A stretch of 64,000 nucleotides of DNA. Source: Hygrophila difformis (Eukaryota; Streptophyta; Magnoliopsida; Lamiales; Acanthaceae). The stretch spans positions 585,858 to 649,857 of the forward strand of contig JAOANR010000012.1 in assembly GCA_030278955.1 (NCBI GenBank), given 5' to 3'. Shown one piece after another: positions 12,947 to 53,141 of this stretch. The notes beneath the pieces are model-generated. The model saw only the letters and a program-made list of their open reading frames with translations, did not search any database and had not been told where the DNA came from. Within the stretch, counting starts at the first letter, position 1. The number at the start of each line of letters is the position of its first letter. The position numbers were made by a program, and so were the translations under genes.

Positions 12947-13233
12947 TGAAACTTTTGACAATTTCGTCAACACGAGCTTTTTCTAAAATATCCCAATTTG
13001 AATTTATTAAATGAAAAGAGTTATGATTCGTGGGAAAGGGGTTTAAGGATATGTTCCACTTTTTATTACTCCTGTGGGAGACTATGATTTCAAACGGCGC
13101 TGTGGAACTCCCTGGCATGAAACTTTTGACAAATTTCTTGGTGCAGCCGGGGTAGACAGTTCAATCTTAACAGACATCAGCGCTCAATACTTAATATAGT
13201 ATCATTTATTACATCTGTCTGCCATACTGAAGG

Positions 13234-13251
13234 TCCCCGGCAACGGCGCCA
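13234..13251 (-). promoter_or_regulatory. Fossil tRNA-Asp primer binding site inside the LTR
   Basis: The minus strand reads TGGCGCCGTTGCCGGGGA, a perfect complement of the plant tRNA-Asp(GUC) 3' end, immediately next to another TGAAACTTTT copy of the LTR terminus. The same arrangement is in the right LTR at 32746-32763. It lies about 300 bp inside the present LTR end. Confidence 0.7.
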
Positions 13252-15690
13252 TGAAACTTTTCACAATTTCATGTCATGAAGTTCCTTGCCATGAAACTTT
13301 TGACAAGTTCCCACTATATGAGTATTTTCTGAAACATAATAATCCTGGTTTTATTTTATTTAATGAAACCAATTTATGAAGATGGAGTTGGAGTTAGGGA
13401 TATATTTATAGGTTGTCACGTTTTTATTACTCGTGTTAAGAAATTGTGCCCCCGAAAGCGCACGGTGTCAAAAATTGCAGTAATTTATAGTAAGACCGGA
13501 TCGTTCACTGGAGGATGTGCGATAGAAGTAGGGCCCACGTCGTTTACTAAGATTTTCCCCTCGGTTACTCGATTCAAGTTTTGCAATTATTTCTAACAAC
13601 TACTTGACAATAATTTAAACTAGATTATGAAAGCAGTGAAATATTATTCTACAAAGCATGGTAAATTTAGTCTAAAAAACGATTAAATTCTATTCTAAGA
13701 AAGCAATGAGAATTATGCAAAGAAAGCAAATAAAATTATTCTACGAAAGCAGATTTAAAATGTGACAGAAGGGACAGGGAGAAGATAATAAGGATTGGAC
13801 AAGATTCAGATAAAACATAAGTAAACTTCCATTTTAATACACAGATCTTTGTTTGGGGTAGTTCGTCAGTTAGCTAACTCTCATGCTCTCTATACCATGT
13901 TCCCTTTAACAGACAGGTACTTATAGTGAGAGTTTACATGCTCTTAAGACAGCAAATTCTAAGATACCACAGACGCATAACTACCCTTGCAATGCACTGC
14001 TGAGGTATATTATTTATCTGTGGTGGACAAGCAACACCTGACAAATCATTAGTTGACATGCCAAGTACTCCTATCATCCCCCTTGTCACACCCAAAGTCC
14101 AAATCTAACCCCGAACTAATCCATAACTCTTAAACCTTACAACCGGTGGCCAACCTCTAATTCTTCCGAGTGACCTCTATGAAAGCATTTAAAAGAAAGC
14201 GATAAAGAAAGCAGTAAAGAAAGCATTTAAAATCTATCACTCGGAAGTCTTAAAAGATCATCACATTCCGTTAGTATAAAAGAGCCTCTGGTCTTGGTGA
14301 CCAGATGCAGATTTAGAACTTCCCAAATATCAGTAAGCCATAGGGCTTATAACATCCGGTTAGTTATGAGATACAAACATGAGTGGAACAGACCTATAAA
14401 GATCTATTCTGAATGTACTCACTCGAGACTCAATTTTAGGCTTTGGCGGGAGAAGATAGTAGTTGAAAGAATACTCAACCCTACCTTAGAAATTAACCAA
14501 GGCCTATATATTGTTCCTCTAATATTAATTATCACATCTTATCCGAGTCTAAGTGGACACTGATTCGATGCAACACTTAATAAAAGATTTCCAACACACA
14601 GGAATTTTGAGAAACAATTAGATATTTGAAAATCATTCCCTAAACAGGTACTAAACTCCCAATTTAAACACAGATCCTTTTAGTCTAGGTGAGACCTAAT
14701 CGCTGACTCTGCTTCTATGTTCTCAAAATCAACCCCCAGTAGGATATGAGTTAGTCATAACTGTTGAATTTATCCCTTACTCAGATCCGGTTTTGATAAA
14801 GTGATTTTTATGAAAATTTATTATGCAACATTTGATTTAAATCAAGACTTCTATGTCCAAGGAGAAGGATCTCCAAAATATTATAGACCACACTATCTAC
14901 ATAATAATAGCATGCATACATGTATATGAGAAGCAAAATAAAGTACCCCAAAATATAGAGTGGGGTTAGACAGAATTTGATACATAAAGATGAATTAGCT
15001 TGAGATAAGAAGAAAATGGCTAAAGAGATGACAAAATAATTAGGGTTAATTGGATTGCAGTTATATGTGGTCCAGTTAACCTAATTATTAAGGTGAGATG
15101 ATTTTAGACAGCAAAAGACCTTAGACGACGGTTGCCACCGTCATCTTAGACTTCACTATCTGTGAATCTGGATGAAAACCCACATGTTCTATTACTGTAA
15201 TAATTATTAGATAACATTGGCATATATCATCTATCATTACTACTACTCTAGATTCAGGTTCGAAATTAAGATAAAGAAAAGAAAACTGTATCCGGATAGG
15301 AGTCAGCTGAGCAGCTGTTATAATCCCGGATGGACGAACCGCCAAGGCTTCCACCGACCACTATCCGGACCATGCAAAATAACAACTAGTAATTAATACT
15401 CAGAATACGAGCTAGTTATCTGTGTGGGAATACCCGCCAACATTAGTCTGATATATTTCTTACTAGTTGTTCATACACACAATGAAAGAGAAAATAATCA
15501 AAATTAAGAAAACGTTTTTGGTATTGTGTGAGTGTTAATCACGCAATAATTAAGACACTAATGAGTTGAGATGTGTAATGGATAAAATTAGGTGTGATGG
15601 GCCTAGGCCCAATACACCCATGCAACTTACACAACACAAGAAATAAAATATTTTTGGAGTTTTGAAAGTAGAAGGAAGAAAGCAACTCGG

Positions 15691-18600
15691 TGTAACACCC
15701 CGGATTTGATAACCCAGACCGGGATGCCACCGCCACACCTCCCTAGCCAGACACGGTTTCTCCGAGCTTGCTAAAGAGATGCAAGGCTATGGTTTTTCAG
15801 AATTTAAAATATTCAAACAGCCCATTATAATATAATTTAAAAAAATCATAATATCAAAGTTGCAGCGGAAAGTAATATTTACATATGTATAATGCAGCGG
15901 AATTTAAGTATAGGGCCGACATGGCCAAAACACGGGTTAAACAGGCCCGTTCATGCAAGTTGTAATTAAATGCAGGAATTTAAAAATAGAGTTTCCCCGA
16001 ATGTTCCCATGTATGCATATGATGATGCATAATCCTCATACTCTGAAAGAAAAAGGAAAAAGAAATATGGTTTGGTCAGCAAAACGTGCTGAGTAAGTTA
16101 ACACCTACTATGATCAAGGGGTTTCAAAATCTTTAATTAGATTTAAGAAAACATGTGCATACAAGACATGATTTAAATTTTATTCATCTAATAATAATTT
16201 TAATCACATATTTGAAAAGACAAGGATTTCCACACGATCATAATTTAACACACGTATAAAGAGGCTTAATTAAATAATTAAATTGTTACTCCGAGGCATG
16301 CATACAAACAACTCATCTATTAATTTAAAATTAATAATTTAATTGTGTAATTGAACATGCATTTAATCCATAATAACAATTTAATAAGATATGCAAATTT
16401 AAAGACAATTTTAAATGCATAATTTAAAGACGGGCATAAATAATAAATACTTAAAAACATTAAATCTTTTATTTCCTCGTTACGTAACCATTTCTCAATA
16501 TTTTGTATAGCCGGTGATCCGGCGGCCGCAGCCGTGTCGTAAGTATCTTGTATAGCCGGTGATCCGGCGGCCGCAGCCATGTCGTATTTCAAGTATTTCA
16601 TTGGCCGTTTTGGCACAGTTTCTCATAACATTCACCCTCGGTCGTTTTGGCACGAAGCGAAAAGCTAGGGGGCGTTCTATTGAGCATTTCCCCCTACGTC
16701 GGTCACTCTCGGCCGTTTTGGCACGAAGCGAAAAGCTAGAAGGGCACTCCATCGAGCACTCACCCCCTACATAGGTCACACTCGTCCGTCTAGGCACGAT
16801 GCGAAAAGCTAGAGGGGCACTCTATCGAGCACTCACCCCCTACATAGCCAAGTATCTCATAGGTTTTAATTTAGTGTAATGGGATTTTTCAAAAGTATAG
16901 ATATATCGTATTTCAAGGTCTCGACCGTTTGTTTCGATATTTCAAAATCTCTTCGATTTAAAATTATTTGACGTCACAGTTTACGCCTTTTTAATTCAAA
17001 AATTCATTTCAAGTCGGAAAAAAATCTGAAATTTTCACAGTAAATCAAAAACGTCCTAACGAACAACTTTCGTGTTTTAACGTTTTCGAAATAAGTTGAG
17101 GAGACATGTCAAAAATCGAGTTTATTACGCAAGCAGAATTCTGTCCGGACTCAGGTTTGTCACAGTTCAAAGTTTCGACTTTTTAACATATCAAATGGAC
17201 TCCAAAAATTCTGAAATTTTATATACACATACTAGACATGATTATCTACAACTTTCATTTAGATTGCAAAGATCAAATCGGACTAGAAAATATAGAAACA
17301 TTCTCATCAAGTTCGGATATGTTCACAGTCAGATTTCGAAAAGTCTTATCAAGGCAGTTTATGTTTGATGCGATTTGAAATAGCAAACATCGACGAAAAT
17401 GTCTGAAATTTTTACACAACCTAGATTTATGTGTTAGGATTAAAAGTCTAGTTTTGAGTTTTTCGGTTTGAACTCTCGAAATAGGGGTTTTGGTTCGATT
17501 TCAAACCTGTCACAGTTTCAAGTTCGAATCTCAAGGCAGGTTGGTTCTCAGCCGTTTCCGGATTTCAAAACTCAATGAAAAATTATGAAAATTTTACACA
17601 AACTAGATCTATGTCTTTGAAACGTTTTTCATGTTTTAAGTTTTTCCGTTTGAGCAGTTTTAAGGGTTCAAAAAATTCACACAAAATTGTTGCGCCGAGG
17701 GTTTTTCGTGTTGACAGATTTTAGAGTTATTAAATCCATATGTTTGGTTGCATTTTAAGTCACCCAAAACCAAGTAAGTATTAACTTACAGTGGTAAGGT
17801 GTTTGGTCGTCCTCGGGTCGCTTGGCTCGTCCAAATCCACTACGAACGGATCTCCTCAACGCCAAGCTTCCAACTTTGGCCACGATTTCAACTCGGAAGA
17901 ATAAATCCAATGTTAGATCGAGTTTTCGGGTTCGAAAACTTAAATGAAAATCTATAAATGACTTACCCAAGTCTGGAGTACTAGAGACCTTGTGTTCTAC
18001 GCCTCCTCCGTCGGTTTTCGTCGCCGGAAAGTGATCGGAAAGTTCGAAGTTGGTGGTTTTCGGGTGTTGGAAGAACATAGAGAGTTGGAGAGTGTTTTTG
18101 GGGTTGCTAGGGTTAGAGTCTCGAAAATGATCAGCCATATGACCTCCAAAACCGACCATATACACCTTCCATCAACCGGGATTGAGTTTCCAAAGTCGGG
18201 ACACGAAAATATGGTAAGAAAATTGCCAAAACGCGTCATGCCGCAGCTGCTGTCTTGGTGGCGCGGGGTTGGCGCGGTTTCTAGCCAAAAACTGCCAGGA
18301 GGGCGCGCGGCCTTGTCTGGGCCGTGCGTCCGGACTGGGCCGTGCGATCCCGTCGGGCCTTTTCTCCTCTCTTTCGGACTTCTGTCCTCCTACGTTTTCG
18401 GGCTCGATTTTTCGGGTCATTCTTGGATCATAAATTCTTATCTTAAATTTATCTATCTCGACTCAAATGAATTTCATGTTTGAAATCTTAAGTTCGTCGG
18501 TCTCGGGTTCGTCGGCTTCCAATTCGTCGTCTTTTGACTCCCGTGCAATAACTTGTGTAATTAAATTTCTTCCGACTTCACGGGTTCTTGGAATTAAAAT

Positions 18601-18826
18601 ACTTTTCCTTCTTGAAATTAATTCCAATTATTTTGACTCGATTCATGGAATGTCTTCGGGCTTCCTTTCCCTCTTTTATTCCATTTTGAATTTTGAATCT
18701 ATCGGCGTTTCATTTCCGAGCAATAATTTATTGTGATAAATTATTTTCTTCTTCTCGGAGATATTTCGACATTAATCGGAATAAATTTTATTCCTTTGGA
18801 CATTGATAAAAATCTGGGGTATTACA
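15691..18826. mobile_element. Solo-LTR-like insertion with TGTAACACCCC ends (Tekay/Del-like)
   Basis: 3136 bp missing from the right Athila LTR and flanked by TSD ctcgg (15686-15690 and 18827-18831). It starts TGTAACACCCCGGATTT and ends AAATCTGGGGTATTACA, so the termini are extended inverted repeats. No coding domain is seen. TG...CA ends, a 5-bp TSD, the length and these termini fit a solo LTR of a Tekay/Del chromovirus; a non-autonomous element is the alternative. Confidence 0.8.
16503..16850 (+). repeat. Two tandem repeat blocks inside the solo LTR
   Basis: Block one (16503-16588) is two copies of a 45-bp unit containing ccggtgatccggcggccgca. Block two (about 16641-16850) is three diverged copies of a unit of about 72 bp containing ggcacgaagcgaaaagctag and a caccccctac tail. 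Confidence 0.85.
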
Positions 18827-18830
18827 CTCG

Positions 18831-19400
18831 GTCTATTGGGCAAAATGCAAATTAGACCGAATTGAGGATGCATGAGGTATGAAGTGACACCTACCCAATT
18901 AATCCTTGTAAAGTCATGAAGCATCCTCTAATTCGAATTGTCAAAGCAATTCGGTCTAAACCGAATTGGACAATTCGAATTGATTAAGTCATTACTTCAC
19001 TCAAATTTGGCTAAGGCATTTACCCCAGAAAGAGTGTAATTCGAATTACCAATTGAATTCGGTCTAGACCGAATTGGCAATTCGAATTGGTAGGACATAA
19101 AATAAACTAAGGCATGAAGGGATGGAATGCATACAATATGATGTACTAGGTCAATTCGATCTATGGGAGGAATTCGGTCTAAACCGAATTCGCACAAACC
19201 GAATTGCTTGTATACCATATGAGAACAATTTTTGCTATGTAATTCGGTCTCATGGGCAATTCGGTTTAGACCGAATTACCTAGACCGAATTGCATATAGA
19301 TTTTAGATAAGGCATTCAACAAATACATTTGCCATGCAATTCCATTCTCATGGGCAATTCGGTTTAGACCGAATTGCCTCAAATCGAATTGCATGTCTTT
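18831..19400. repeat. Nested palindrome array, left Athila LTR
   Basis: About five cassettes, each with a central dyad of the AATTCGGTCTAGACCGAATT type (perfect at 19056-19075; variants at 18947, about 19160, 19260 and 19355), often flanked by outward half-sites AATTCG(G/A)TCTA and TAGACCGAATT. Cassettes are 90-110 bp apart with unrelated sequence between them. The right LTR has the same array at 35191-35760. Confidence 0.9.
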
Positions 19401-19511
19401 TCTCACTTAAAAGATATTTTGAGCTCACTAGTACAGGTTCGGTTTATACTGTGTGGTTCATGATGGATAAGATTTACCAAATCCTTCATTTCACATCAGT
19501 GTCACCTCACA

Positions 19512-20382
19512 GCCACACTAATGAGTGTTTTAAGGAAAATAGGCATAATAGGTTACGTGGCTAGCAGGTATTGGCATGAGATGCACCTTAATTCTGCAAA
19601 CAAGCAATCAAAGATCAAAGACCTAAACATCTAAGAATAATAAGAACACATGCATAAAAATAAGAACACCTACATTATCTAAGGCAACAATAAGCTAACA
19701 TAAAGAGAACAAAACAGCAACAGAATAAACCTAGAAATAAATTCTAACAAACCTAAAATCATCTAAAACCTAAGAACACTCATTTGAATCACTAAGGTGT
19801 AAGAACAAGCCAAAAACCCACTAAACATGCATTTATTGAGAATGTAAGTCAAATAGGACATAATAAATGTAACCTAGTTGAAACAAACAAACATTCAAAC
19901 ATTTATTGCTAAGGAAATCATTAAATAAGTGCCAAACACTTGAAATAGAAACCCATTTCTGGATTTTTTCTTGTATTGACACTTGAAAACAACAAATAAC
20001 CCTAAAACCATCATTAGCTTGAAGGTAGGGTTCATTATAACTACAAAGCATTTAAAGTTTATGGTAATGACTACACTAAAGGTAGTGACAAGCTTCTATA
20101 AAAAAAAAATAAACTAAGATCAAAAGCATTAAAACTACACTACAAACATGAAAAGTAAACTAACTAACTAAACTACCTACCTAACCCTTAAGGGGTGGAG
20201 AACCTTATGCTCCTTCTTTTTGTCTCCCAGCAATTGTCCAAATGTTAGTGTTCGAATCTTCTTCTTGTGTTGAGGAAGGTCAGCTTTTATACTTCTTCTC
20301 AGAACCCTAGGCCCATCAGGGTCCATCCACAGTGCCATGCATTTCTCACGTGCTCAAAGCTGCAGTTTCGAATGTGGTTCGG
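19512..20382 (-). other. Athila internal non-coding region next to the 3' LTR
   Basis: A-rich on the plus strand, no gene recognised. A clear polypurine tract directly beside 19511 is not seen, consistent with an uncertain LTR limit. On the minus strand a TATA-like TATAAAAG (20284-20291) is followed by about 110 bp that could be a transcript leader, then GT-rich sequence. Confidence 0.5.
20284..20291 (-). promoter_or_regulatory. TATA box downstream of palindrome array A
   Basis: Minus strand TATAAAAG in a GC-richer context, about 90 bp beyond the last palindrome of array A. No coding product is recognised downstream before the LTR. Confidence 0.4.
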
Positions 20383-20785
20383 TCTCCTCAAGCAGTTCGG
20401 TTTAGACCGAATTGGTGAAATGAGGTCTTTCTTCTTGATCTTGAGCATGGAATGTGGTGATTCGGTCTATGGGTAGACCGAATTGGCCTTGTCGAACTAA
20501 TGATGGCTCCTGCTTGGCTTCTTTGTTTTGAGTCAATTCGATCTATGCACTCAATTCGGTCTAGACCGAATTGCATAATATCGAACTCCTTCTTTTCTTT
20601 TCTGCTCAGGGTCTTCTTCTTTCCAAAGTGCAATTCGGTCTAGGGGTCAATTCGGTGTAGACCGAATTGCCACAGACCGAATTGGTTGCTCTTTCTTTCT
20701 TCAACACTTCTCTTTTTCTTCTCTTCAGCAATTCGGTCTAATAAGCAATTCGGTTTAGGTCGAATTGCGTATAGACCGAATTGAT
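20383..20785. repeat. Nested palindrome array A (internal)
   Basis: Five cassettes starting near 20380, 20459, 20534, 20631 and 20729. The perfect 20-bp dyad is at 20553-20572; others vary at the centre (ttta, gtgta). Half-sites flank most centres. Same consensus as the LTR array. Confidence 0.9.
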
Positions 20786-22894
20786 CTTCAACACTTAACC
20801 AAAATTTCAATTTGTGGGATTTTCATTCTGTTTCCCATCTTTTTGATTTTTGTGGGCTATTTTATTCTTTTGCCCATCTTTTCATTCCTTTTTCTTTTCT
20901 TTTTCCTTTTTTCATGTTTTTGGATTTTTCCAACACAAATGCAATTAAAATTGCATATTTTTGTGTCTTTCATTACCAGCTTATTTTTCTTACAAACTTG
21001 CATCAATCTGTCGAATTCAACTGCTTTCTCATTAAAATAAGATGGGAATACGATCAAAATGTCCGTCTCAGACACGGAAATGGATTGGAAATAATGGACA
21101 ATTTTGGCCATTATCAACATCCTCACATTTAATACTGATCGTCCCCGAGCAGTCAGAGTCAGTGCTCCTAAGAGCATGGACTCTGCACATTCAATCCATT
21201 TGCGTGGCTTCAAAAATTTTCATTCTTGTTATATTGGGATAATACAATCAAAATTACAAGTATTAAACTCTCTTGATTGCAGTGTTTAATGAAATGATAC
21301 TTCTCACTTGGATAGGTATACAAATCAATCATTATTGTTAATTTTTCTTGAATATATGTATAGAAAATTTCATTGGTTTAGTTCTTGAATTCAAGCATGA
21401 TATGAACATTAATCAATTACAGCAGAGCCTCACATATAGTAGAATCGGAAAGTTCACTCACTCTCAAAGTTGGCTTTTAGACAATATGCTCATAATCAAA
21501 TTCAAATAAATTCTCCCATAAGCTTGCAATTAGACCAACTCGCCACCTACTCATTTCCTCAAATCGAGATCCCGAGGTCTTATTTAAGGTTATAACGGGA
21601 CCTACGGTTGTGGCATTTGGTTGGGAAGGACATTATTGGGCTAAAAGTGACACGAATCTATTCCACCATGACTTGGCATATTTTTATTTTAAAATCTATG
21701 ATCATCAATAATTCTTTCTTTCTTTTGTTTTTCTTTTCTATTGCATGACATTAGACTATGTCTAATTTGCTTTGTCGATTGTAATTTATTTCTGTTGAAT
21801 GAATCTCAACATTTTTCTCTTTCTCTTTTCTTTTCTTCTCTCTTCTTTTTTTTTTTTTTTGATCGGTTTATGAATACCGATTGACATTTTTGATGATCAT
21901 AAACTATAATGCCTTGATGGAATTGGTTCGTGTACACTTGGGTTTGATTTCTTGGTCTTTTTATAAAGTTGGGGATAATATAGTGGTTTCAAAGAAAAAT
22001 TAGGCTTATAGGCTCAGAGTGGTTAATCCTAAAGGAAAAATATTTTTGGGTTTGGAATTCAAAAGAAGGCCAAAAATTTGGGTTTTTCTAAGTGCCTCGA
22101 TCACATGCTCGATTTCGGGAATATGGCATGGTCTTGAATCGATCCCGATTGCAAGTTCTAGTGTCCTTTAATCGAATTGATTTTCACACAACAAAGAAAT
22201 AATGAGTAAAAATGACTCGGCTCAGATCTCACATGGACGGTTTGATCATGTTATACCCTTATTCTTAAATTTAGCCTTTGAAAAATTCTTGCAAATTATT
22301 CAATCAAATTCTCAACATGAAAATTTTGTTTTTCTTCCAAGCGATCATATCATTGGATTTTTATAGCTCAAACCTCAAGAATTTATATCATGCATATTTT
22401 TAATTGTTTTATCCCAATTTAATAGTTTGAAAATTTCATCCTTAGCCTAAATTCAACATGTGAATTTAGGTGACAGATTTTATGCTCGTTTTGTGCCGGT
22501 TATTTAATTGAAATCAGTAGAGAGATACTGTGAACATGCAAGCATGTTACAGCTTTGTTTTTGGTGTGACAGTCACTTATTCATCTTGGACTGTCACATA
22601 TCTTTTTCAAAAATATTTTTGAGAATTCAAGACGAAATTCTCTTGTGAAAAGCAGTAAAGGATTATTACCAAAATACAGCTTCTAACCACCACATCGAGT
22701 GGCTTCAAGGTTCGTCTTAAAGCTACGACCCTACTTACAGAAACCCATTAATACATTAATTACAGGAGATGCTATACACTTGGGTAAAGTTTTCACAAGG
22801 AGCATTTCAAAAAGATCTCCTAAATGAGGTTTCAGTTTAAATTACTCAAAAATGACTCTATACAGCTGAGTCTGTCTTCCACATCCTTCTTCCC
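20786..22894 (-). other. Athila internal region downstream of the F-box gene
   Basis: T-rich tracts (20870-20930, 21810-21860) and no recognised gene. It contains one copy of the recurring motif atcaacatcctcacattt at 21113-21130; related copies are at 23630 and 26208. The part adjoining 22895 is the probable 3' UTR of the F-box gene. Confidence 0.5.
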
Positions 22895-25075
22895 TTATCC
22901 TTGGAAGAAAATCCTGCTCCAGTGGACAAAGTTTGTCAGGCTGCAGGGCAAGCAGTAATCACCCTCGTCATCCTGATTCTCCAACACTTTCTGGCAGTAG
23001 ATCCTGGGTCCTTGGAATATGAACAAATCAGGGGTCTCCAGACTTTCCATCAGACATGCAAAGACGTTGTTGCCGACGTATGCCATGACTGATTCGTCCG
23101 TCACCATCTTGTTGATCATTGCAATTCCCTGGTCCACCTGTTCCTTCTCCAGCTTGCTAAGCAGCATGAATCCTCTGACAAAGATTGATGCCTTATGATT
23201 GTCATCAATCCCTGGCTTCAGCAGTTCACAGGCCCTTTCCTCATTGCCTGCTCCGAATGCTTGCAGGGCTGGCACGAACTGGAGGTAGTAGTTGCCCGCG
23301 TCGACACACTTCTGCATGAGTTCCTCCTTTTCCGCCTCGACTCCTATCTCCCACATCTTAACGATTGTGGTTTCCAGTTCGCACCTCTTGTACACAATGG
23401 GGAGATCCCCAGCTACCTTGAACATCTTGCACACCCTTCTGGCAGCGAAAACCTTTTTGAGGTCATCCTCTCCTATGCGGGAGAGGATTTCTCCCAGAAG
23501 TTCCATTGGCAGGTCTAGTAGTTCGAGCATGTCCTGTTCTAGAGCTGGTCCTGGCAGGATGATGTCCCTGGCAAAGAGACATTGAAACTATTTTTAACAC
23601 GTTTTTTATACAAATATTCAAATTGAAAAATCAACATCCTTACATTTTGAGTTGTGCTCTAAATGTGAGTTAATTGATTTTACTTGAATTTATTGAGTCA
23701 TACCACGTATTAAAAGACAGGGAGTTAGATTATAGAATCTAACTGTTATTGCAACTAAAAAGTAAAGGAAATAAGAGAAGTAAGGGTCTTGGACCCTTAC
23801 CAATTTTTCTTAGACTAAAAATAGTTTAAAGATTTTTGAATGGTCAAAGGACCAAAATAAAGATTTTTATAGACTATTGAGCCTACAAAAGAAAAGTATA
23901 TATTTTTTATCACTATAAGAGTAATCAAAAGCATATAAAAAGGGAAAATGGATATTTAATAATGAAGAATTCAATACATAAGAAGAGTTATGCAATTACT
24001 AGGGCAAGGTGATGGACTAAGAGAAAAGAATGAATGAAAATAGAAACAAACATACACATGCAAAAAGGTCATTTTTGGATTTTATGGAAAGTGTTGACTT
24101 GTTTATTTAATGAAGTTGAAGGTGTGAGTGGTCCCCATTTGAGTTTTTGTTTTGGGAAATAGGTATTAATGGGTGAGCAAAGTTGCTACCTTGTTTATTC
24201 CCCACATATCCCAATGATAAACATGTCAACCACTTGAGTAAAAACATAATTCTGCCAACTATTGTCTTTTTAGACAAAAGTGCCATGCCAATAGTGTTTG
24301 GAAAATACTTGTCGGGAAAAATTTTGGCATGGTTTCCTTTGTAATACCATGTTTCCAGTGTATGCAAACATCAACTTTTTCAGTTGAGTTTGCAAGTGGT
24401 GGTAACAGGTACCCCACATGAGCATTTATTAAGAGGGTTGCACAATACATTACATGCAAACACAAAACAACAAACGAGAATAGTCCATTCACACCAGTAT
24501 CATGCAAAATTTTGCCAATAAATCATGCTTCAAAAACATAGATTCGGCAACATCATCAACATGCATATTCAACAACATTATCAAATATCCAGTAAACAAA
24601 ATAACACAGTGGTTGCAGGGGAAAATAAACCACTGTGTTTTCCCATTTTCATATCCTCAAAGATTAAACAAGCAACACAGGAACAACACATGATATGCAT
24701 AATCAAAATAATGGCAACAAATATTCACAATAACAGCAAAGATCGAATTTCTATGGGTTTTGAAGCCCAAAATTTTCAAAATAGAAGCATCCCTACACCA
24801 CAGAAAACTCGGACAGTAATAATGGCAGTTCGAACTCAGGCAAGAAAAAGCCCTAGTTTGGACTACTCTGTTATATCCTATTCCGGCCACACCCAACTCA
24901 TTCCGACCATTTCCCGACCACGCTCAACACGAAAACAGGCCTCATTCCCCTCCCCATTATCGATTTCGCAACAACGAAGAAAAACCAAAACTGAAATCGC
25001 AAGAATGAGAGTGCGAAATCGAAAACAGGACACTTACCCGACACTCTCAGTAGGATTAGACAAAGAAGACGCCAT
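22895..25075 (-). CDS. F-box protein, At1g67623-like, two exons, inside the Athila element
   Basis: F-box proteins are substrate-recognition subunits of SCF ubiquitin ligases. Exon 1 is 25038-25075 (ATG, MASSLSNPTESV), ending in a perfect donor GTAAGTG; exon 2 is 22895-23567 after TTTGCCAG. The two join in phase (38 + 673 nt), giving 236 residues with no stop. Residues about 30-70 form an F-box (LDLPMELLGEILSRIGEDDL, then RRVCKMFKVAGD). The rest (MQKCVDAGNYYLQFVPALQAF, and a RGFMLLSKLE segment) resembles the Sel1-like repeats of At1g67623-type plant F-box proteins; the C-terminal Cys/Trp-rich tail also fits. It is on the gag-pol strand, with its own TATA box at 25221-25230 and a pyrimidine-rich 5' leader of about 115 nt. 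The retained 1.47-kb intron argues against simple capture of a spliced mRNA. Family call fairly sure; function unknown. Confidence 0.75.
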
Positions 25076-25220: not shown

Positions 25221-25230
25221 ATATATATAG
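25221..25230 (-). promoter_or_regulatory. TATA box of the F-box gene
   Basis: Minus strand CTATATATAT, about 146 bp upstream of the ATG and directly adjacent to palindrome array B. The sequence between is CT-rich, as plant leaders often are. Confidence 0.6.
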
Positions 25231-25244: not shown

Positions 25245-25855
25245 GGTAATTCGGTCTATTGGATACCGAACCAACAATTCGGTCTAGACCGAATTGATGT
25301 GGTCTCCAATTGTTTGTGAGGGATTCGGTCTATTAGGCCAATTCGGTCTAGACCGAATTGGCATGGAGACCGAATTGAGAGGAAAAACAAACAAACAAAC
25401 ACTTACTGTAATGTGGACTTTTGAAGTCAATTCGGTCTAGACCGAATTGGTCTAGAGACCGAATTACAGCAAGAAGACCGAATTTGGGTACTCAGGAAAA
25501 TAAAAGGGGATATGCTTTTGCGAGGCAATTCGGTCTATATGAGCAATTCGGTCTAGACCGAATTGCCTTATAGATCGAATTGCTCACTTGCAAGAATAAA
25601 ACTAAGGAATCAAAATGCCTTTTGTAGATCAATTCGATCTATTCAAAATCAATTCGGTCTAGACCGAATTGCTATAGACCGAATTGCTACATGGCCAAAT
25701 TTACACAAGGATGGAGCATGTGTCTTGGGAAGCCAATTCGGTCTCTTAGGCCAATTCGGTCTAGACCGAATTTGCTTGGAGATCGAATTGGTTAAAATTC
25801 CCCAGGTACACCTCCATCGTGATCTGTTTCAAACAATTCGATGTAGACCGAATTG
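25245..25855. repeat. Nested palindrome array B, upstream of the F-box gene
   Basis: Seven cassettes. Perfect 20-bp dyads centre near 25285, 25350, 25438, 25555, 25660 and 25762; a partial unit is at 25832-25855. Typical order is half-site, 3-10 bp, full dyad, 2-10 bp, inverted half-site, then 40-50 bp of unrelated sequence. This is the most regular and best conserved of the arrays. Confidence 0.92.
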
Positions 25856-26323: not shown

Positions 26324-29300
26324 TTATTGAGCATAGGCCGGCTCTGATGTCATTTGACTTCTTTTTCGGGGTCGAACTGTCCTAGATACTCCTTCAATCT
26401 GTGTCCATTCACCACCAGCTCCCTTTGTCAGTTCAAATCCTGCTCCACTTTCAAACACGTGCACCACTTCGTATGGCCCTTCCCATCTGGATTTAAGCTT
26501 TCCGGGGAACAGCTTTAACCTAGAATTGAATAACAAGACATTTTGGCCAACATAGAAGTGTTTAGACTTTATACGACGATCGTTTAACTTCTGGGTCCGC
26601 TCTTTGTAAATCCTCGAGCTTTCATAAGCTTGCGCACGTATTTCCTCAATTTCATTGAGATCCAACTTGCGCTTACTCTGAGCAACTCGTGGGTCAAAAT
26701 TAAGCGTTTTTACGGCCCAGTAGGCCTTGTGCTCTAGTTCTACAGGCAAATGACAGGCTTTTCCAAAGACAAGCCTGTATGGGGACATCCCAATGGGAGT
26801 CTTGAATGCGGTGCGGTATGTCCATAGAGCATCATTGAGTTTACGTGCCAGTCTTTGCGGGTTACCCCCACAGTAGCCTCGAGTATGTGTTTAATTTCGC
26901 GGTTAGATACCTCGACTTGGCCATTGGTTTGGGGATGATAAGGCGTGCCGATCTTGTGGAGAATCCCACTTCTGCTCATGAGATTTGCAAAAGCTTTGTT
27001 GACAAAGTGTGTTCTTCCATCAGATATGATTACCCTAGGTACACCAAATCTATTGAAAATGTTATTTTTCAAAAATTTGATGACTTGCTGACCATCGTTG
27101 GTTGGCAGCGCAACCGCCTCGACCCACTTGGACACGTAATCGACAGCTACCAAGATGTAGTGATTCCCATCAGATGTCGGGAATGGTCCCATGAAGTCAA
27201 TACCCCATACATCGAAAATCTCAAGGATGAGAATTCCTTTTTGCGGCATTTCATCCCTCTTGGAGATATTCCCTAATCTTTGGCATCTGTCGCAAGCCTT
27301 AACAAACGCCTTGCAATCCTCGTAAATGGTAGGCCAATAGAAACCACACTCGAGCACCTTGTGAGCTGTTCGAGTGGGGCCACGGTGACCTCCATATTCC
27401 GATTCATGACATTTTTTAGCGATTTGATAAGCCTCATGCTCAGTTACACATCGTCTAATAATCGAATCTGCACAATGCTTAAAGAGATAAGGATATTCCC
27501 AGAAGTAGTCAACTACATCTTGGTTGAACCTTGCTTTTTGTTTCTTGATCTGGAATGGTGGGGTTATTCCACATGCTAAAAAGTTAGCAATGTCGGAAAA
27601 CCATGGACAAGCTTGATCATGAAGGTGCAAGGCAAACAGTTGCTCATCCGGAAAATTTTCATTGACGGCTATCTCATTTTTATCATTTTCTATTCCAGAC
27701 AAATGGTCAGCAGCACCATTGTCTCTGCTTTTTCTATCTTTTATTATGATATCAAATTCCTGAAACAAAAGTACCCACCTGATTAATCGAGGTTTGGCAT
27801 CTTGTTTGCTAAACAAGTATCTCAGTGCAGAGTGATCGGTGTATACTATGGTTTTCGTACCAATGAGGTATTGTCTGAATTTATCAAACGCGAAAACCAC
27901 AGCATACATCTCTTTCTCCGTGGTGGTGTAATTGACTTGGGCTTCAGTCAGGGCATGGCTGGCGTAATGAATCACGCAGTGCCTTCCTTCCTTATGTTGC
28001 CCAAGAACTGCACCCACGGCGAGATCACTTGCATCGCACATTACCTCGAAAGGCATTGACCAATCGGGTGGTTGCACTATTGGAGCAGAAATCAAAATCT
28101 TCTTGAGCGTGTCAAAGGCTTGAACACACGCTTCATTTATTACAAAAGAATTTTCTTTACAAAGCAAATTAGTGAGCGGCTTGGCAATTTTAGAAAAGTC
28201 TTTAATGAATCTCCGGTAAAAACCGGCATGCCCTAAGAAACTCCTAACTGCTTTTATCGAGTTTGGTAAAGGAAGGTTGGATATGACTGAGACTTTGGCC
28301 CTATCGACTTCGATGCCCGCGCGCGAGATGCGGTGACCCAACACTATTCCCTCGGTGACCATGAAATGGCACTTTTCCCAGTTTAAAACTAGGTTAGTGT
28401 CCTCGCATCTTTTTAAAATTTTTGCAAGATTTGTCAAACATTCATCAAAAGTATCTCCATACACAGAGAAGTCATCCATGAAAACTTCAATGTATTTTTT
28501 GATAAATTCTGAGAAGCTAGACATCATGCATCGCTGAAACGTGGCAGGCGCATTGCAAAGTCCAAAAGGCATGTGCCTGTACGCAAAAGTTCCATATGGG
28601 CACGTGAAAGTGGTCTTATCATGATCTTCACTAGCTATTACAATCAGATTGTAACCAGAGTACCCATCCAAAAAGCAGTAGTACTCCCTCCCGGCCAACC
28701 TCTCCAGCATCTGATCAATGAATGGCAAGGGAAAATGATCCTTCCGCGTAGCGGTGTTGAGCTTCCGGTAGTCGATGCAGACTCTCCAACCGGTCACTGG
28801 ACGTGTCGCCACTTCTTCTCCTTGCTCATTAGTCGTTATGCACATCCCCCCACGCTTAGGTACTACCTGCACTGGGCTAACCCATTTACTGTCAGATATA
28901 GGATAGATGATACCAGCATCTAAGAGCTTGATAACTTCTTTCCTTACCACTTCTTGCATATGGGGGTTCAGACGCCTTTGTGGTTGCCTAGAAGGCTTGT
29001 ACTCCTCTTCCATTAAAATTATGTGCATGCAAACAGAGGGGCTTATTCCTTTTATATCAGAAATGGTCCATCCAATTGCATGTACATATTTCTTTAGAAT
29101 GTCTACCAGAGCTTTTTCTTGTTCCTGTGTCAGCTTGGCTGACACAATTACAGGTAACCTTTTATGTTCAGCGAGAAAAATGTACTTAAGATGATCCGGA
29201 AGTATTTTAAGTTCAAGCTCTGGCGGACATTCAATGGAAGGGAGTAATTTGCGAGAAATGGTTGGGGGTGAAAGATCAGATTTACCTTCAGGACCCTGTG

Positions 29301-29736
29301 TCAGTACAGGGTCCACTTCCTCTTCAGTGGTGCTCTCTTCCTCCTCAGGAGTGAATTCAACACCGTCAAACTCTTCAAGATCCCCAGTGATAGGGTCTTC
29401 GAAGTGAACAGCGTTGCAGCTTCTTTGTTGCTCAGCACCTCCAGGTGTCAGTACCTGTTTTGAAACTTTGTCTGTCATCACAGTCATAGAGTCTATGCTC
29501 TCATCCTCACACCTACTTTCTATTACATCAAACATGGAACAAGATCCCTCATTCGGGAATTTCTGCATCTCCTCCATGTCAAAAGAGATTTCTCGATTAT
29601 CTACCCTCAATGTGACTCTTCCAGATGTGGCATCAATCAGTGCACCGCCAATGGCCAAAAACGGGCGTCCCAGGATAAGTGGCATTTCAGAGTCCTCTTC
29701 AATGTCAAGGATGATGAAGTCAACCGGGAAAAGGAC
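26324..29736 (-). pseudogene. Athila pol: protease end, RT, RNase H, integrase
   Basis: Directly continues the gag-protease frame after one stop. Reading downwards: protease end [19 protein letters not shown] with [11 protein letters not shown] and the FMDDFSVYG box (about 28457-28483); RNase H with [13 protein letters not shown] and [10 protein letters not shown]; integrase zinc finger (GGHRGPTRT, then CDRCQRLG); DDE core with [10 protein letters not shown] and IISDGRTHF, then [17 protein letters not shown] frameshift near 26830 moves the C-terminal integrase ([17 protein letters not shown] and onwards, ending at 26324) to another frame. All catalytic motifs are readable. Confidence 0.92.
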
Positions 29737-32313
29737 TTAGCCGGTCTTAACTACCACATCCTTGAGGATTCCTACGGGCTTAGTGATTGATCTGTCTGCC
29801 AGTTGCAGTTTCATCTTGACCGGTTCGATCTCTCCGAGCCTTAGGCGAATTGCCATGGCTAGAGGCATCACGTTGATGCTGGATCCTAGATCACATAAAC
29901 CCATGCTCACTTTGGCCTTTCCAATCTGTACTGGTAGCGTGCAACATCCAGGGTCCTCTTTCTTTTCGGGCAGCTTCCTCTGAACTATGGCACTGCATGT
30001 GCTGTTGAGAATGATCACCTCCTCCTGCTCTACCTGCCTTTTCCCTGAAATCAATTCTTTCAAGAACTTAGCATAGGTGGGCATTTCTGAAATCATTTCC
30101 ACGAGAGGAATGGTTATCTCTACAGACTTTAACCGTTCTAGAAATTTCTTGAATTTAAGGTCATGTTCCTTATTTTTAAGACGTGCAGGGTACGGCACCC
30201 TTGGCATGTACTTATTATTATCAATTTTTGGTGGTAAAGAGAAGGAAGTTGTACCTTCACCCATACCCTTTTCAGCTTCATTTGCAGCTTCAGCCTGCGG
30301 GTTTGCTGTATCTGATTTATCCTTTACCAGCTCAACACTTTCATCTCCTTCAACCTTTTCCTTTTCCTTTTCCACCTCCAATGAAACCTTTACTTTCATA
30401 GTTTTCTTCTTTGCAGATCCAACATTTCCCTTCAGAGTCTTGCCTCCCCGCAATGTGATTGCCTTGCATTGCGAGTTGGCTTGCGTGCTGCTCGGCAGTG
30501 TTCCTTTCCCTCTGTTCTGCAATTCCTTAGCCAACTGGGTGACCTGCGTCTCCACATTTTTGATTGATGACTGCAATTGCCGGTTTATCTCCCTTTGATT
30601 GGAAATAAACTCAGTCATCAAATTCTCCAGGCGAGATGGTGGCTTTTGGTTATATTGCTGATTCTGATCAGGTTGGGCTTGGAAGTTTTGGAAATTCTGG
30701 CCTTGGTTTTGGTTGGGCCTCTGTTGGATATGGGGTTGAAAGTTCTGATTCTGATTCTGGAAGTTCTGAACTCTCTGCTGAACGAATCCTTGGTTCTGAG
30801 GTCTGAAGTTCTGCTGAAGATTCTGGTTTGCGAACTGGTTAGGCTGGTTTGGCTGTGTCAACAAATGCGCATTGAGTGCATTATTGTTGGAATAGGAGAG
30901 GTTGGGGTGGCGGTTCTGGTAGTTCCCTGCGTAATTGCAGCTTTCGGTAGCTAGTTGTTGACATGTGTCAGTTGGATGTGGTCCCTGACATAGCCCACAA
31001 ATTGCTCTCGATTGTTGTGCTTGCACTTGGCTAGATGAGGCTCCTGCCTGAGAAGTACCTGCTCCCTTTCCTTTCTCATGTCCTAGCTATATCGCAGCTA
31101 CCTGTTCCTGCAATTTTTCGAAATCTGTTTTTCCTTCACTCACAGCAAAAACTTTTCTAGGAGGGTCCACCTTCTTGTCACTGCTGTTCAATACAGATCT
31201 ATTGACAGACATTGTCTCAATCTTTTCCCAGGCTTGATCCATGGGCAAATGGAGTAAATGTCTTCCACCTGCAGCGTCCAACATCATTCTCCATGGATGG
31301 GTGAGTCCTCCATAGAATTTCCTCAGTTTCTCCCACGGTTGATATCCGTGTTGGGGGCATCGCCTTAAGAGGCTGGAGAACCTCTCCTTTGCGTCATACA
31401 ATGACTCGTCCGGCTTCATCTTGAACTCTCCAATTTTCTCTCGTCCCTCGTCTATCTTAGATTCAGGAAAGTACTTTAACAGAAAACTCCTCACCAAATC
31501 TGCCCAGGTACTCCTCTGATTTATGGGTAATGATTTATACCAATCCCTGGCACCACTAAACAAAGAAAAGCGAAACAACATTAGTCTTATAGCATCAGGT
31601 GAGACTCCCTGATTTTTTATTGTGTCGCAGAGCTCCAGGAAGGTTTGGAGATGATCATGGGGATCCTCATGATTTGCACCGCAGAATTGATTGTTTTGCA
31701 CCAAATTAATGAGTGCCGGTTTGAGCTCAAAATTGCGTGCAGGAAATTGTGCTCTCCCAGGTCTATCCAGATAGGGCTCCACGATGGGCTGCATAAAATC
31801 AGCTGCTGCTTGCTGCTGTTGATTTCCTTGCTTTGCTTGGTTTTGATACTGCTGGTGGTAGTTGGGATTCTGTTGAAAAATATTATCGGGATCATGAGGG
31901 TTGTTTTGGAACTGGTCCTGATTGAAGGCTTGATTCTGGTATTGCTGGTTTGGTATATTTTGATTTTGTTGGTTATATTGGTTAGGGGGTGGTGGTTGTT
32001 GGTGGAATTGCTGATACTGTTGCTGATATGGATTAGGTAGATTTTCCTCTTCGTTGGCACGATTCGGGTGTTCTACCATACCCCTATCAGCTCCATTACC
32101 AGGATTATTGGGTGGTTGGTCTATTGGTAATATCGGGGGAATGTCCTGGTTCTCTGCCATATCAGATATTTCGCTGCTTGTGGTTTCTGGTGAGGTACGA
32201 GTCCGGGCTTCTTGCTCTTTCCTTCGTCTGGCTTGCGCCCTCAGTTGGCGAGCGGTCCTTTCTATTTCTAGATCGAACGGTAGCTCAGGCAATGTGGCCT
32301 TTCTCCTTTGCAT
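29737..32313 (-). pseudogene. Athila gag and protease start
   Basis: ATG 32313 (MQRRKATLPELPF) follows the PBS. A strongly Gln/Asn-rich segment (about 31800-32040) precedes the gag domain (REKIGEFKMKPDESLYDAKERF). One in-frame TAG interrupts at about 31087; the frame resumes with the Athila-type zinc finger CGLCQGPHPTDTC, a second Q/N-rich stretch, coiled-coil-like sequence and the protease (CDLGSSINVMPL). A second in-frame TAA is at 29737-29739, inside the protease domain. No frameshift is needed from 32313 to 26830, so only two point nonsense changes break this stretch. Confidence 0.9.
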
Positions 32314-32440
32314 AAGCAGTTTGTATCAAGATTTGACAGCACCTGCACAACCCCCAGGTAGTAATGGTTCAAGAATATATACAAAAACTATCTATGAGTA
32401 AATCAGGAGTGTAGTTCTCTTAATAAACGGCACTGCATCC

Positions 32441-32458
32441 TCCCCGGCAACAGCGACA
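32441..32458 (-). promoter_or_regulatory. Athila primer binding site (degenerate tRNA-Asp type)
   Basis: Minus strand TGTCGCTGTTGCCGGGGA begins at the LTR edge. Compared with the canonical tRNA-Asp complement it differs at two positions; the perfect version sits inside the LTR at 32746-32763. Confidence 0.75.
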
Positions 32459-35400
32459 TGAAACTTTTGACAGTTTCGTCAACACGAGCTTTTTCTAAAA
32501 TATCCCAATTTGAATTTATTAAATGAAAAGAGTTATGATTCTTGGGAAAGGGGTTTAAGGATATGTTCCACTTTTTATTACTCCTGTGGGAGACTTTGAT
32601 TTCAAACGGCGCTGTGGAACTCCCTGGCATGAAACTTTTGACAAATTTCTTGGTGCAGCTGGGGTAGACAGTTCAATCTTGACAGACATCAGCGCTCAAT
32701 ACTTAATATAGTATCATTTATTACATCTGTCTGCCATACTGAAGGTCCCCGGCAACGGCGCCATGAAACTTTTCATAATTTCATGTCATGAAGTTCCTTG
32801 CCATGAAACTTTTGACAAGTTCCCACTATATGAGTATTTTCTGAAACATAATAATCCTGGTTTTATTTTATTTAATGAAACCAATTTATGAAGATGGAGT
32901 TGGAGTTAGGGATATATTTATAGGTTGTCACGTTTTTATTACTCGTGTTAAGAAACTGTGCCCCCGAAAGCGCACGGTGTCAAAAATTGCAGTAATTTAT
33001 AGTAAGACTGGATCGTTCACTGGAGGATGTGCGATAGAAGCAGGGCCCACGTCGTTTACTAAGATTTTCCACTCGGTTACTCGATTCAAGTTTTACAATT
33101 ATTTCTAACAACTACTTGACAATAATTTAAACTAGATTATGAAAGCAGTGAAATATTATTCTACAAAGCATGGTAAATTTAGTCTAAAAAGCGATTAAAT
33201 TCTATTCTAAGAAAGCAATGAGAATTATGCTAAGAAAGCGAATAAAATTATTCTACGAAAGCAGATTTAAAATGTGACAGAAGGGACAGGGAGAAGATAA
33301 TAAGGATTGGACAAGATTCAGATGAAATATAAGTAAACTTCCATTTTAATACACAGATCTTTGTTTGGGGTAGTTCGTCAGTTAGCTAACTCTCATGCTC
33401 TCTATACCATGTTCCCTTTAACAGACAGGTACTTATAGTGAGAGTTTACATGCTCTTAAGACAGCAAATTCTAAGATACCACAGACGCATAACTACCCTT
33501 GCAATGCACTGCTGAGGTATATTATTTATCTGTGGTGGACAAGCAACACCTGACAAATCATTAGTTGACATGCCAAGTACTCCTATCATCCCCCTTGTCA
33601 CACCCAAAGTCCAAATCTCACCCCGAACTAATCCATAACTCTTAAACCTTACAACCGGCGGCCAACCTCTAATTCTTCCGAGTGACCTCTATGAAAGCAT
33701 TTTAAAGAAAGCGATAAAGAAAGCAGTAAAGAAAGCATTTAAAACCTATCACTCGGAAGTCTTAAAAGATCATCACACTCCGTTAGTATAAAAGAGCCCC
33801 TGGTCTTGGTGACCAGATGCAGATTTAGAACTTCCCAAATATCAGTAAGCCACAGGGCTTATAACATCCGGTTAGTTACGAGATACAAACATGAGTGGAA
33901 CAGACCTATGAAGATCTATTCCGAATGTACTCATTCGAGACTCAATTTTAGGCATTGGCGGGAGAAGATAGTAGTTGAAAGAATACTCAACCCTACCTTA
34001 GAAATTAACCAAGGCCTATATGTTGTTCCTCTAATATTAATTATCACATCTTATCCGAGTCCAAGTGGACACTGATTCGATGCAACACTTAATAAAAGAT
34101 TTCCAACACACATGAATTTTGAGAAACAATTAGATATTTGAAAATCATTCCCTAAACAGGTACTAAACTCTCAATTTAAACACAGATCCTTTTAGTCTAG
34201 GTGAGACCTAATCGCTGACTCTGCTTCTATGTTCTCAAAATCAACCCCCAGTAGGATATGAGTTAGTCATAACTGTTGAATTTATCCCTTACTCAGATCT
34301 GGTTTTGATAAAGTGATTTTTATGGAAATTTATTATGCAACATCTGATTTAAATCAAGATTTCTATGTCCAAGGAGAAGGATCTCCAAAATATTATAGAC
34401 CACACTATCTACATAATAATAGCATGCATACATGTATATGAGAAGCAAAATAAAGTACCCCAAAATATAGAGTGCGGTTAGACAGAATTTGATACACAAA
34501 GATGAATTAGCCTGAGATAAGAAGAAAATGGCTAAAGAGATGACAAAATAATTAGGGTTAATTGGATTGCAGTTATCTGTGGTCCAGTTAACCTAACTAT
34601 TAAGGTGAGATGATTTTAGACAGCAGAAGACCTTAGACGACGGTTGTCGCCGTCATCTTAGACTTCACTATCTGTGAATCTGGATGAAAACCCACATGTT
34701 CTATTACTGTAATAATTATTAGATAACATTGGCATATATCATCTATCATTACTACAACTCTAGATTCAGGTTCGAAATTAAGATAAATAAAAGAAAACTA
34801 TATCCGGATAGGAGTCAGCTGAGCAGCTGTTATAATCTCGGATGGACGAACCGCCAAGGCTTCCACCGACCACTATCCGGACCATGCAAAATAACAACTA
34901 GTAATTAATACTCAGAATACGAGCTAGTTATCCGTGTGGGAATAACATTATTCTGATATATTTCTTACTAGTTGTTCATACACACAATGAAAGAGAAAAT
35001 AATCAAAATTAAGAAAACGTTTTTGGTATTGTGTGAGTGTTAATCACGCAATAATTAAGACACTAATGAGTTGAGATGTGTAATGGATAAAATTAGGTGC
35101 GATGGGCCTAGGCCCAATACACCCATGCAACTTACACAACTCAAGAAATAAAATATTTTTGGAGTTTTGAAAGTAGAAGGAAGAAAGCAACTCGGTCTAT
35201 TGGGCAAAATGCAAATTAGACCGAATTGAGGATGCATGAGGTATGAAGTGACACCTACCCAATTAATCCTTGTAAAGTCATGAAGCATCCTCTAATTCGA
35301 ATTGTCAAAGCAATTCGGTCTAAACCGAATTGGACAATTCGAATTGATTAAGTCATTACTTCACTCAAATTTGGCTAAGGCATTTACCCCAGAAAGAGGG

Positions 35401-35875
35401 TAAGTCGAATTACCAATTGAATTCGGTCTAGACCGAATTGGCAATTCGAATTGGTAGGACATAAAATAAACTAAGGCATGAAGGGATGGAATGCATACAA
35501 TATGATGTACTAGGTCAATTCGATCTATGGGAGGAATTCGGTCTAAACCGAATTCGCACAAACCGAATTTCTTGTATACCATATGAGAACAATTTTTGCT
35601 ATGTAATTCGGTCTCATGGGCAATTCGTTTTAGACCGAATTACCTAGACCGAATTGCATATAGATTTTAGATAAGGCATTCAACAAATACATTTGCCATG
35701 CAATTCCATTCTCATGGGCAATTCGGTTTAGACCGAATTGCCTCAAATCGAATTGCATGTCTTTTCTCACTTAAAAGATATTTTGAGCTCACTAGTACAG
35801 GTTCGGTTTATACTGTGTGGTTCATGATGGATAAGATTTACCAAATCCTTCATTTCACATCAGTGTCACCTCACA
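32459..35875 (-). repeat. Athila 5' LTR
   Basis: 3417 bp, uninterrupted, aligned throughout to the left copy. Contains the internal fossil PBS (32746-32763) and the palindrome array (35191-35760; perfect dyad at 35420-35439). It stops at 35875 where Mutator-like sequence begins, so the outermost U3 may be lost. Confidence 0.9.
35191..35760. repeat. Nested palindrome array, right Athila LTR
   Basis: Copy of the left-LTR array with the same order of cassettes and a few substitutions, e.g. attcgttttag for the left attcggtttag near 35625. Confidence 0.9.
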
Positions 35876-36208
35876 GTGGGGGTGATAACGAGTCGAGTCG
35901 AGTGGGCTCTTGAAGTAGTTGCAGATTGAGCGAGTGTGGAGATTGAGCGAGTAGATCGTCGCCCCGACTTCAACGTCGACGTCCGCCGCCCGCCGCCCGC
36001 CGCAACGCTAATCATCCAGCTATCACCGTCAAATCGCCCACCACCACCGCCGCAACGCCAGTCTCGCTCAGGCTGTTGGAAGTCCGGCCGCTGCAGCCGA
36101 CGTCACCGCCGAGGCGCCGCATCTCACTGTCGTCGTTTCCCATCGTCACCGCCGCGTCGCCCTGGTTTCTCATCTTTACTACCGTACGGCCGCCGCTGGA
36201 GTGGTGAC

Positions 36209-44940: not shown

Positions 44941-45117
44941 ATTTTCTTAATGCAAATATTATAAATTTTTCAGTGTTTTTGATTTCAAAACAGTAAGAAA
45001 AAATGATCTTGATCCATTATTAAACAATTCTTCCGAATTACATATTCACATTAAATGTCTCAACAACAATATTTAATGCCTCAACAACCTTAAAAATTCA
45101 CTACCAGGTAGTTTCAA

Positions 45118-53064: not shown

Positions 53065-53141
53065 AATCTTATTGAAAATTTAGAAATAAGAGATTATACC
53101 TCAAATGATAATCTGGACAGAGTCTCCTCGTGCTGATAACG

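Follow-up and report, generated by a model that had tools for sequence, protein, structure and literature searches.

A palindromic cassette array in an Athila-like Ty3/gypsy retrotransposon of Hygrophila difformis, a probable transcriptional control module

Why should a plant genome carry regularly spaced, nested palindromes directly upstream of a gene? We addressed this question for one such array, A1, in a 64,000-nucleotide stretch of Hygrophila difformis DNA (the window), which is eukaryotic, plant-like and holds nested LTR retrotransposons. An earlier note on this DNA described six perfect 20-bp dyads every 64–116 bp. Indeed, copies of AATTCGGTCTAGACCGAATT start at 25276, 25340, 25429, 25545, 25651 and 25753, and a degenerate seventh dyad with two mismatches lies at 25835, giving centre-to-centre distances of 64, 89, 116, 106, 102 and 82 bp. 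AATTCGGTCTAGACCGAATT is the only palindrome of at least 14 bp that occurs three or more times in the 64 kb (two-letter palindromes excluded). With up to three mismatches, the dyad matches 22 places in the window and none in 100 dinucleotide shuffles.

Lone half-sites accompany the dyads, and here the earlier description required revision. The note had every dyad flanked on both sides. At up to two mismatches this is the case for four of the seven A1 dyads (25340, 25545, 25651 and 25753; 15–20 bp from start to start), whereas dyad 25429 has two half-sites on its right and none on its left, dyad 25276 has a single one, 28 bp off on the left, and none was found beside 25835. The half-sites had also been described as facing outward, when each of the 11 that stand alone in A1 is directed at the dyad closest to it, as are 7 of 9 in array A2 and 6 of 7 in array A3, the other arrays of the window (Table 1). 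Because the lone half-sites face the nearest dyad, the cassette can be written as > >< <. This grammar extends to other loci. Across the window and 34 other loci, 35 sources of which a few overlap so that a few dyads are doubled, 248 of 250 half-sites with at most one mismatch within 20 bp of a dyad edge point inward, 121/122 on the left and 127/128 on the right. Among 212 dyads, 190 of them counted under the window's family and 22 added by other families, the cassette gaps are mostly 4–5 or 7–8 bp, with peaks at 5 and 7–8 bp. Such a half-site is absent on the left of 90 and on the right of 84 of these dyads, or ∼40% per side.

The genome search with the 20-mer at two mismatches that the earlier note had proposed returned at least 14,954 places in the plant's own genome (915 Mb, 246 contigs), while the reversed control returned none. 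Searches of viral contigs and of prokaryote genome contigs gave 0 matches each. We read 39 regions around most of the matches listed, all on one contig (C1) and thus not a random sample; most of these loci, among the matches listed on that contig, belong to the family of the window element. The note had held that an array widespread without link to this element would speak against its reading. The array is widespread, but at the loci read it lies in or beside retrotransposon sequence.

A1 itself sits inside a minus-strand, Athila-like Ty3/gypsy retrotransposon, between pol and the TATA promoter of an F-box gene, which agrees with the earlier placement of the array upstream of a gene. The classification as Ty3/gypsy is based on the order of the polymerase domains (reverse transcriptase, RT, at 314–470, RNase H at 534–661 and integrase at 842–935), a Retrotrans_gag domain, TG...CA LTRs and a 5-bp target duplication. 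The duplication is that of a relative, E1 (loci L029, L013 and L030), which has TGGAC at both LTR ends (TGATAATGG...AGTTTCA); the window copy shows none because its 5′ LTR is truncated. In the Sireviruses, which are Ty1/copia elements, integrase precedes RT and the polymerase is of the RVT_2 type. Unlike these, the host of A1 is a Ty3/gypsy element with the RT–RNase H–integrase order and an RVT_1 polymerase. Stops interrupt its gag-pol region at 31087, 29737 and 26740, and an ORF in a different frame (26324–26788) overlaps the third of these.

The two LTRs correspond in two blocks, 12947–15694 with 32459–35199 and 18826–19512 with 35190–35876. Four other copies (L029, L040, L041 and L042) start no more than 6 bp from the position equivalent to 21116, which rules out an LTR start at 21811, where a 49-nt purine run followed by TG had been considered as the polypurine tract (PPT)/LTR junction. 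The run itself (21812–21860, on the element's strand, ∼0.7 kb before the LTR start) is possibly an extra polypurine tract. At the position of the primer binding site, the relative L042 reads TGGCGCCGTTGCCGGGGA, which we take to be the complement of tRNA-Asp. On the basis of this primer site and of RT features, the element is tentatively likened to the Athila lineage. Two primer-site-like sequences on the minus strand each follow GTTTCA, a degenerate one at 32441–32458 and a clean TGGCGCCGTTGCCGGGGA at 32746–32763. The clean copy sits ∼300 bp within the LTR, which looks as though it had expanded beyond a former primer site.

Table 1. Positions of the arrays and of the surrounding parts of the element in the window.
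Feature	Position	Strand	Remarks
Array A1	25245..25855	-	7 dyads (6 perfect) and 11 lone inward-pointing half-sites; upstream of internal promoter
Internal-promoter TATA box CTATATATA	25222..25230	-	∼18 bp beyond last A1 half-site (25248); then pyrimidine-rich leader
Putative exon 1 ATGGCGTCTTCT...GTCGG, then donor GTAAGT	25038..25075	-	splice site judged by eye
F-box + plant TPR ORF, 230 aa	22898..23587	-	occupies the env place of Athila relatives
Array A2, in LTR	20376..20782	-	4 dyads and lone half-sites; begins 334 bp inside LTR; 407 bp
Putative LTR TATA box GAAGTATAAAAGCTG (TATAAAAG at 20291)	20286..20291	-	∼85 bp beyond last A2 half-site
Array A3, 3′ LTR	18825..19390	-	5 dyads and lone half-sites; ∼0.9 kb beyond LTR TATA box
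Array A3, 5′ LTR	35189..35754	-	twin of 18825–19390
5′ LTR	32459..35876	-	5′ end truncated at 35876, ∼1.6 kb missing
3′ LTR TGATAATGG...AGTTTCA	12947..21116	-	5030 bp without ∼3.1-kb insertion 15695–18834
Primer binding site, degenerate TGTCGCTGTTGCCGGGGA	32441..32458	-	directly after LTR
gag-pol region	26324..32325	-	RT–RNase H–integrase order (Ty3/gypsy)

Downstream of A1 the order is TATA (25229), pyrimidine-rich leader, ATG, a short reading frame with a putative splice donor, and the F-box ORF. In the 12 A1 copies inspected, a TATA-like or AT-rich box lies at about the same place, with TATA[AT]A strictly in 2 of the 12 and variants such as TTTATATT and TATTTATT among the others; ATGGC is found at exon 1 in 11 of the 12. 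A position before a TATA box is shared by A1, A2 and the arrays of L034 with its neighbour L043, of L032 and of L037. No TATA box was found after the arrays of L033 and L036 in the stretch scanned, and A3 is not upstream of one.

Five of the loci fall outside the window's family by array or polymerase: L034 (with L043), L032, L036, L037 and L033. L034 carries RT–RNase H and an SH3_Tf2-1 domain, an arrangement that we take to be chromovirus-like, and L032 has the same array as L034. Compared with the RT of L034, those of L036 and L037 are 68.5% and 73.9% alike; L033 is 71% like the window polymerase ORF over 205 aa. Because the window polymerase ORF is only 33–36% identical to those of L034, L036 and L037, and both sides have the array, at least two clades carry it. 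At L034/L043 the pol ORFs lie between the two copies of a direct repeat, 95–98% alike, which were read as the LTRs. In both repeat copies the array precedes CTATAAATA, although only two dyads are left in that of L043. A TATA box thus follows the end of the array of this chromovirus-like family (F2) in L034, in the repeat L043 and in L032, and family F4 (L037) also has one after its array. Sharing between families includes sequence outside the motif, namely an 18-nt stretch common to A3 and L034 and a 54-nt stretch beside the array that is 91% common to L034 and L036. These shared stretches make an exchange of pieces between clades as likely as convergence. Additionally, the 9-mer CTAAGGCAT occurs 35 times within ∼150 bp of dyads (40,003 bases) versus 3 times in the remaining 289,235 bases; most of these occurrences are in homologous copies, and loci that overlap contribute twice. 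It lies between or beside cassettes in three families (window 18825–19390, L034 4200–4850 and L033 3900–4450) and is perhaps a second binding site.

To compare the motif with its surroundings, we set the motif columns on one copy and measured divergence among the remaining copies. Across 16 copies of A1, the window included, the motif diverges by 6.2%, 2.7-fold less than the spacer at 17.0%; the values for motif and spacer are 6.5% and 14.8% in A2 (11 copies, 2.3-fold) and 6.5% and 10.5% in A3 (12 copies, 1.6-fold). A separate comparison of 14 A1 copies gave 5.0% versus 13.9% (Mann-Whitney p 6e-13). Within A1 of the window, mean pairwise identity is 0.97 for the dyad versus 0.26 at 34–45 bp from the dyad centre, and masked blastn gave no match between spacers within or between A1, A2 and A3. 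The earlier note had called the spacers unrelated, had suggested selection or active homogenisation of the dyads and had named spacers as conserved as the dyads as the observation that would argue otherwise; the sequences side with unrelated spacers and with selection on the dyads, the spacers diverging 1.6–2.7-fold more than the motifs in the copies compared.

Changes within the dyads were scored by arm. Of 80 A1 dyads, 51 are perfect, and the changes comprise 50 in one arm and 2 in both; the 16 dyads of the window have 13 one-arm changes and none in both arms. This pattern bears on the possibility that the array has no function and that tandem duplication or gene conversion keeps the motif copies alike. 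Repetition of the motif in arrays and the 54-nt stretch common between families would fit such an origin, but duplication does not account for unrelated spacers within and between the window arrays or for a motif more conserved than its spacer in all three, and one-arm changes usually lack a counterpart in the opposite arm. We regard an array without function as very improbable.

We also considered whether the motif is conserved merely because it mutates slowly. In the spacers 3 CGs occur over 862 bases, against an expectation of ∼39, and nearly all CGs of the arrays are the motif's own. The CpG observed/expected ratio is 1.0–1.08 in the arrays versus 0.21–0.70 elsewhere in the element, with an array GC content of only 38–43%; the nested insertion at 15695–18834 exceeds the arrays in this ratio. 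This ∼3.1-kb insertion reaches ∼1.2–1.6 in its top windows and contains 73-bp and 45-bp tandem repeats, and relatives of it are found again next to or within LTRs that bear palindromes (L022, L028, L029, L035 and L036). Between the two LTRs of the window element, the array has 5 substitutions in 687 bases, none of them a transition, whereas 38 of the 52 substitutions in the 2731 bases outside it are transitions; none of the 23 array CGs is broken, compared with 12 of 60 elsewhere. The array block of this pair thus looked like a cold spot, which counts against a binding-site model and suggested a hypomethylated array. That idea was dropped, since two other LTR pairs did not repeat the pattern: their transitions number 13/975 in the array versus 8/1245 outside and 9/1000 versus 26/3665 (the second pair being L040 with L012/L026, whose membership in one element is inferred), and the CGs broken between LTR twins of the two elements sum to 9/81 in the array versus 8/69 in the other LTR sequence. 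Conservation of the motif is therefore probably not a mutational cold spot. Because inserted copies lose the motif at the usual rate, its conservation must come from copies that transposed.

The same counts bear on a mechanism like that of the VANC proteins, in which the element's own protein would bind the arrays and strip methylation from its copies. The non-coding regions of VANDAL elements hold dense short motifs that are read by a transposon protein (PMC5735166), and the arrays resemble these targets in the density and shortness of their motifs and in their non-coding place within a plant transposable element. The missing transitions of the window LTR pair would agree with such a protein, but the signal is absent from the two other pairs. 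Unlike the inward-facing cassettes, the VANC motifs are described as arrayed in the same orientation (PMC5735166), and no such reading protein was recognised in the window element, whose sole extra ORF with a recognised domain is the F-box + TPR ORF, with no DNA-binding domain. Additionally, a motif common to distant gypsy clades is ill-suited to an element-specific reader. We consider an anti-silencing protein of this kind improbable.

A role as RNA has more in its favor. Transcribed cassettes could fold into two-step hairpins that feed small RNAs, making the array a recognition point for the host, as proposed for the LTR palindromes of maize Sireviruses, on which small RNAs pile up (PMC10760457, PMC5311732). 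A1 is predicted to fold far better than its shuffles (z of -17.0 and -17.7 on the two strands), A2 reaches -8.5 and -9.1 and A3 -9.5 and -10.2, and the seven single A1 cassettes fold to about -20 to -36 kcal/mol. Gaps from one cassette also show greater mutual complementarity than swapped gaps (12 cassettes; P 0.003 for one strand and 0.008 for the other), which counts against a pure protein-site model. However, single-array gap tests are not clear (exact P 0.05 to 0.33), some control regions also beat their shuffles (z from -0.8 down to -6.5), and half-sites often stand alone or in a dyad whose other arm is degenerate. Because changes in one arm are so rarely compensated in the other, protein binding fits better than a conserved RNA stem. 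Thus, of the cruciform or transcribed hairpin offered in the earlier note, the strong predicted fold stands, while hairpin formation as the main function is at odds with the arm changes; overall, we find the RNA role unlikely. Nothing that we came across pointed to the recombination site that the note had offered as a further reading.

We therefore favor as the probable explanation that the array serves an Athila-like Ty3/gypsy retrotransposon as a multi-site module for transcriptional control, bound by a dimeric or tetrameric protein and acting on both an LTR and an internal TATA box. The cassette > >< < would present four half-sites, AATTCGGT(C/T)T, to this DNA-binding protein, which is most likely encoded by the host. 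With arrays before the LTR TATA and the internal TATA, genomic RNA and F-box mRNA would come under the same factor. What we infer is that a protein binds, that the host encodes it, that it activates instead of repressing and that both TATA boxes are used. A dimeric transcription-factor site, one of the readings in the earlier note, thus appears likeliest, given the rare compensation, the lone half-sites, the inward grammar and the proximity to TATA boxes. Several observations count against the model. One array, A3, follows the LTR TATA by ∼0.9 kb instead of preceding a TATA box, and no promoter accounts for its role; the strict TATA[AT]A is found in just 2 of 12 A1 promoters, and the ∼40% of dyads lacking a half-site on a given side also weigh against it. 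We know of no plant factor for the half-site. Heat-shock, auxin and DREB sites were compared by eye, and neither half-site nor spacing appears to match. The presence of the same module in two deeply separated clades suggests one shared DNA-binding factor, and from the sequence comparisons the array appears to be a real, widespread cis-regulatory array of Ty3/gypsy elements, most likely the binding array of a shared host factor.

The earlier note knew of no described family with this unit, but the palindromic repeated motifs (RM) of Sireviruses show the same design (PMC2829016). In these Ty1/copia elements, RM lie before the LTR TATA and before env. Their palindromes have a CGG-CCG core, such as CGGTCAGACCG in Osr8, CGGTCTGACCG in Osr10 and CGGTCGACCG in Vitis, and many LTR copies begin 200–400 bp after the PPT/LTR junction and extend over 300–500 bp to just before the TATA box, with further copies upstream of ENV and CpG-rich clusters (PMC2829016). 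The arrays here share a CGGTCTAGACCG core, with 7 (A1), 4 (A2) and 5 (A3) dyads versus at least 8 RM copies per element; A2 starts 334 bp into the LTR and spans 407 bp with the TATA ∼85 bp on, A3 lies further on, and A1 precedes the gene in the ENV position. They differ from RM in the longer unit (20–22 bp), the four-half-site cassette and the F-box gene in the ENV position. RM are called Sirevirus-specific, within a Ty1/copia comparison, and Bousios and colleagues neither name a binding factor nor conclusively find an internal env promoter (PMC2829016). Judged by sequence features, what we describe is the already known RM design, here in Ty3/gypsy, outside Sirevirus.

Among Ty3/gypsy elements, the window element resembles the lineage of Athila, Calypso and Diaspora (PMC1142308) in what we take to be a tRNA-Asp-type primer binding site and, for Athila and Calypso members, in a gene after pol; its long LTR (5.0 kb) recalls that of Diaspora (2524 bp). 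It differs from this lineage in the palindrome arrays, in an F-box gene instead of an env-like gene and in a primer binding site directly after the LTR instead of 5 bp beyond it (PMC1142308). Grande (gene23) and Retand (aORFs) likewise carry additional genes after pol and before the 3′ LTR, with a promoter of its own in the case of Grande (PMC7264820, PMC11963269). Those genes are antisense and of other types, in contrast to an F-box + TPR ORF in the gag-pol sense. Searching by title and start of abstract in one open-access literature collection, we found no report of such arrays in Athila or other Ty3/gypsy elements, nor of an F-box gene in the env position. The new points are the half-site grammar, the sharing between clades, so that two distant clades appear to have one regulatory module, and the F-box gene (dN/dS 0.11–0.18) in the env position. 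Given ∼15,000 dyads, a clear grammar and two of three arrays of the window element closely followed by a TATA box, the factor should be findable and the internal promoter testable.

The F-box ORF gave no match to any NCBIfam family, and of 161 candidate protein relatives none reached E ≤0.001. Eight A1 copies reach past its place (L005, L006, L011, L012, L013, L016, L038 and L039), and blastn finds the F-box in four of them, L006, L011, L012 and L013. Against three of these copies, third codon positions differ by 41–45% and first and second positions by 14–18%; over the four copies dN/dS is 0.12, 0.13 and 0.18, and 0.11 for the close copy L012. The longest open stretch is 251 aa in L006, 263 aa in L013, 230 aa in L012 and only 161 aa in L011, and the last copy therefore looks broken. 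Synonymous divergence is high (dS 1.0–1.4) while the flanks are 87–95% identical. Thus the gene module has a history different from that of its flanks, by exchange or separate capture. In the high-dS pairs the signal of purifying selection may be older than the capture; the L012 pair argues for selection within the element. From these codon comparisons, the retrotransposon lineage appears to keep its F-box gene under purifying selection.

The P0 protein of poleroviruses is an F-box protein that marks a host silencing factor for degradation. A wider proposal, which we offer tentatively and hold to be possible though doubtful, is that one host factor acts as a switch shared by two or more deeply separated Ty3/gypsy clades, each with a > >< < array before its LTR promoter. 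In one clade the further array would drive an F-box effector under purifying selection, which might, for example, mark a host silencing factor for degradation.

Three further observations concern neighbouring or rearranged elements. Locus L005 (own genome, C1:1213000-1222900) is a rearranged copy in which gag and pol run one way and A1, promoter and post-pol region the opposite way. At 43930–44946 (minus strand) the window holds an ORF with a MuDR transposase DNA-binding domain and a 42-bp tandem repeat inside. A Ty1/copia element lies at 47831–53533, and because its two 392-bp LTRs are 100% identical, it is probably a recent insertion.
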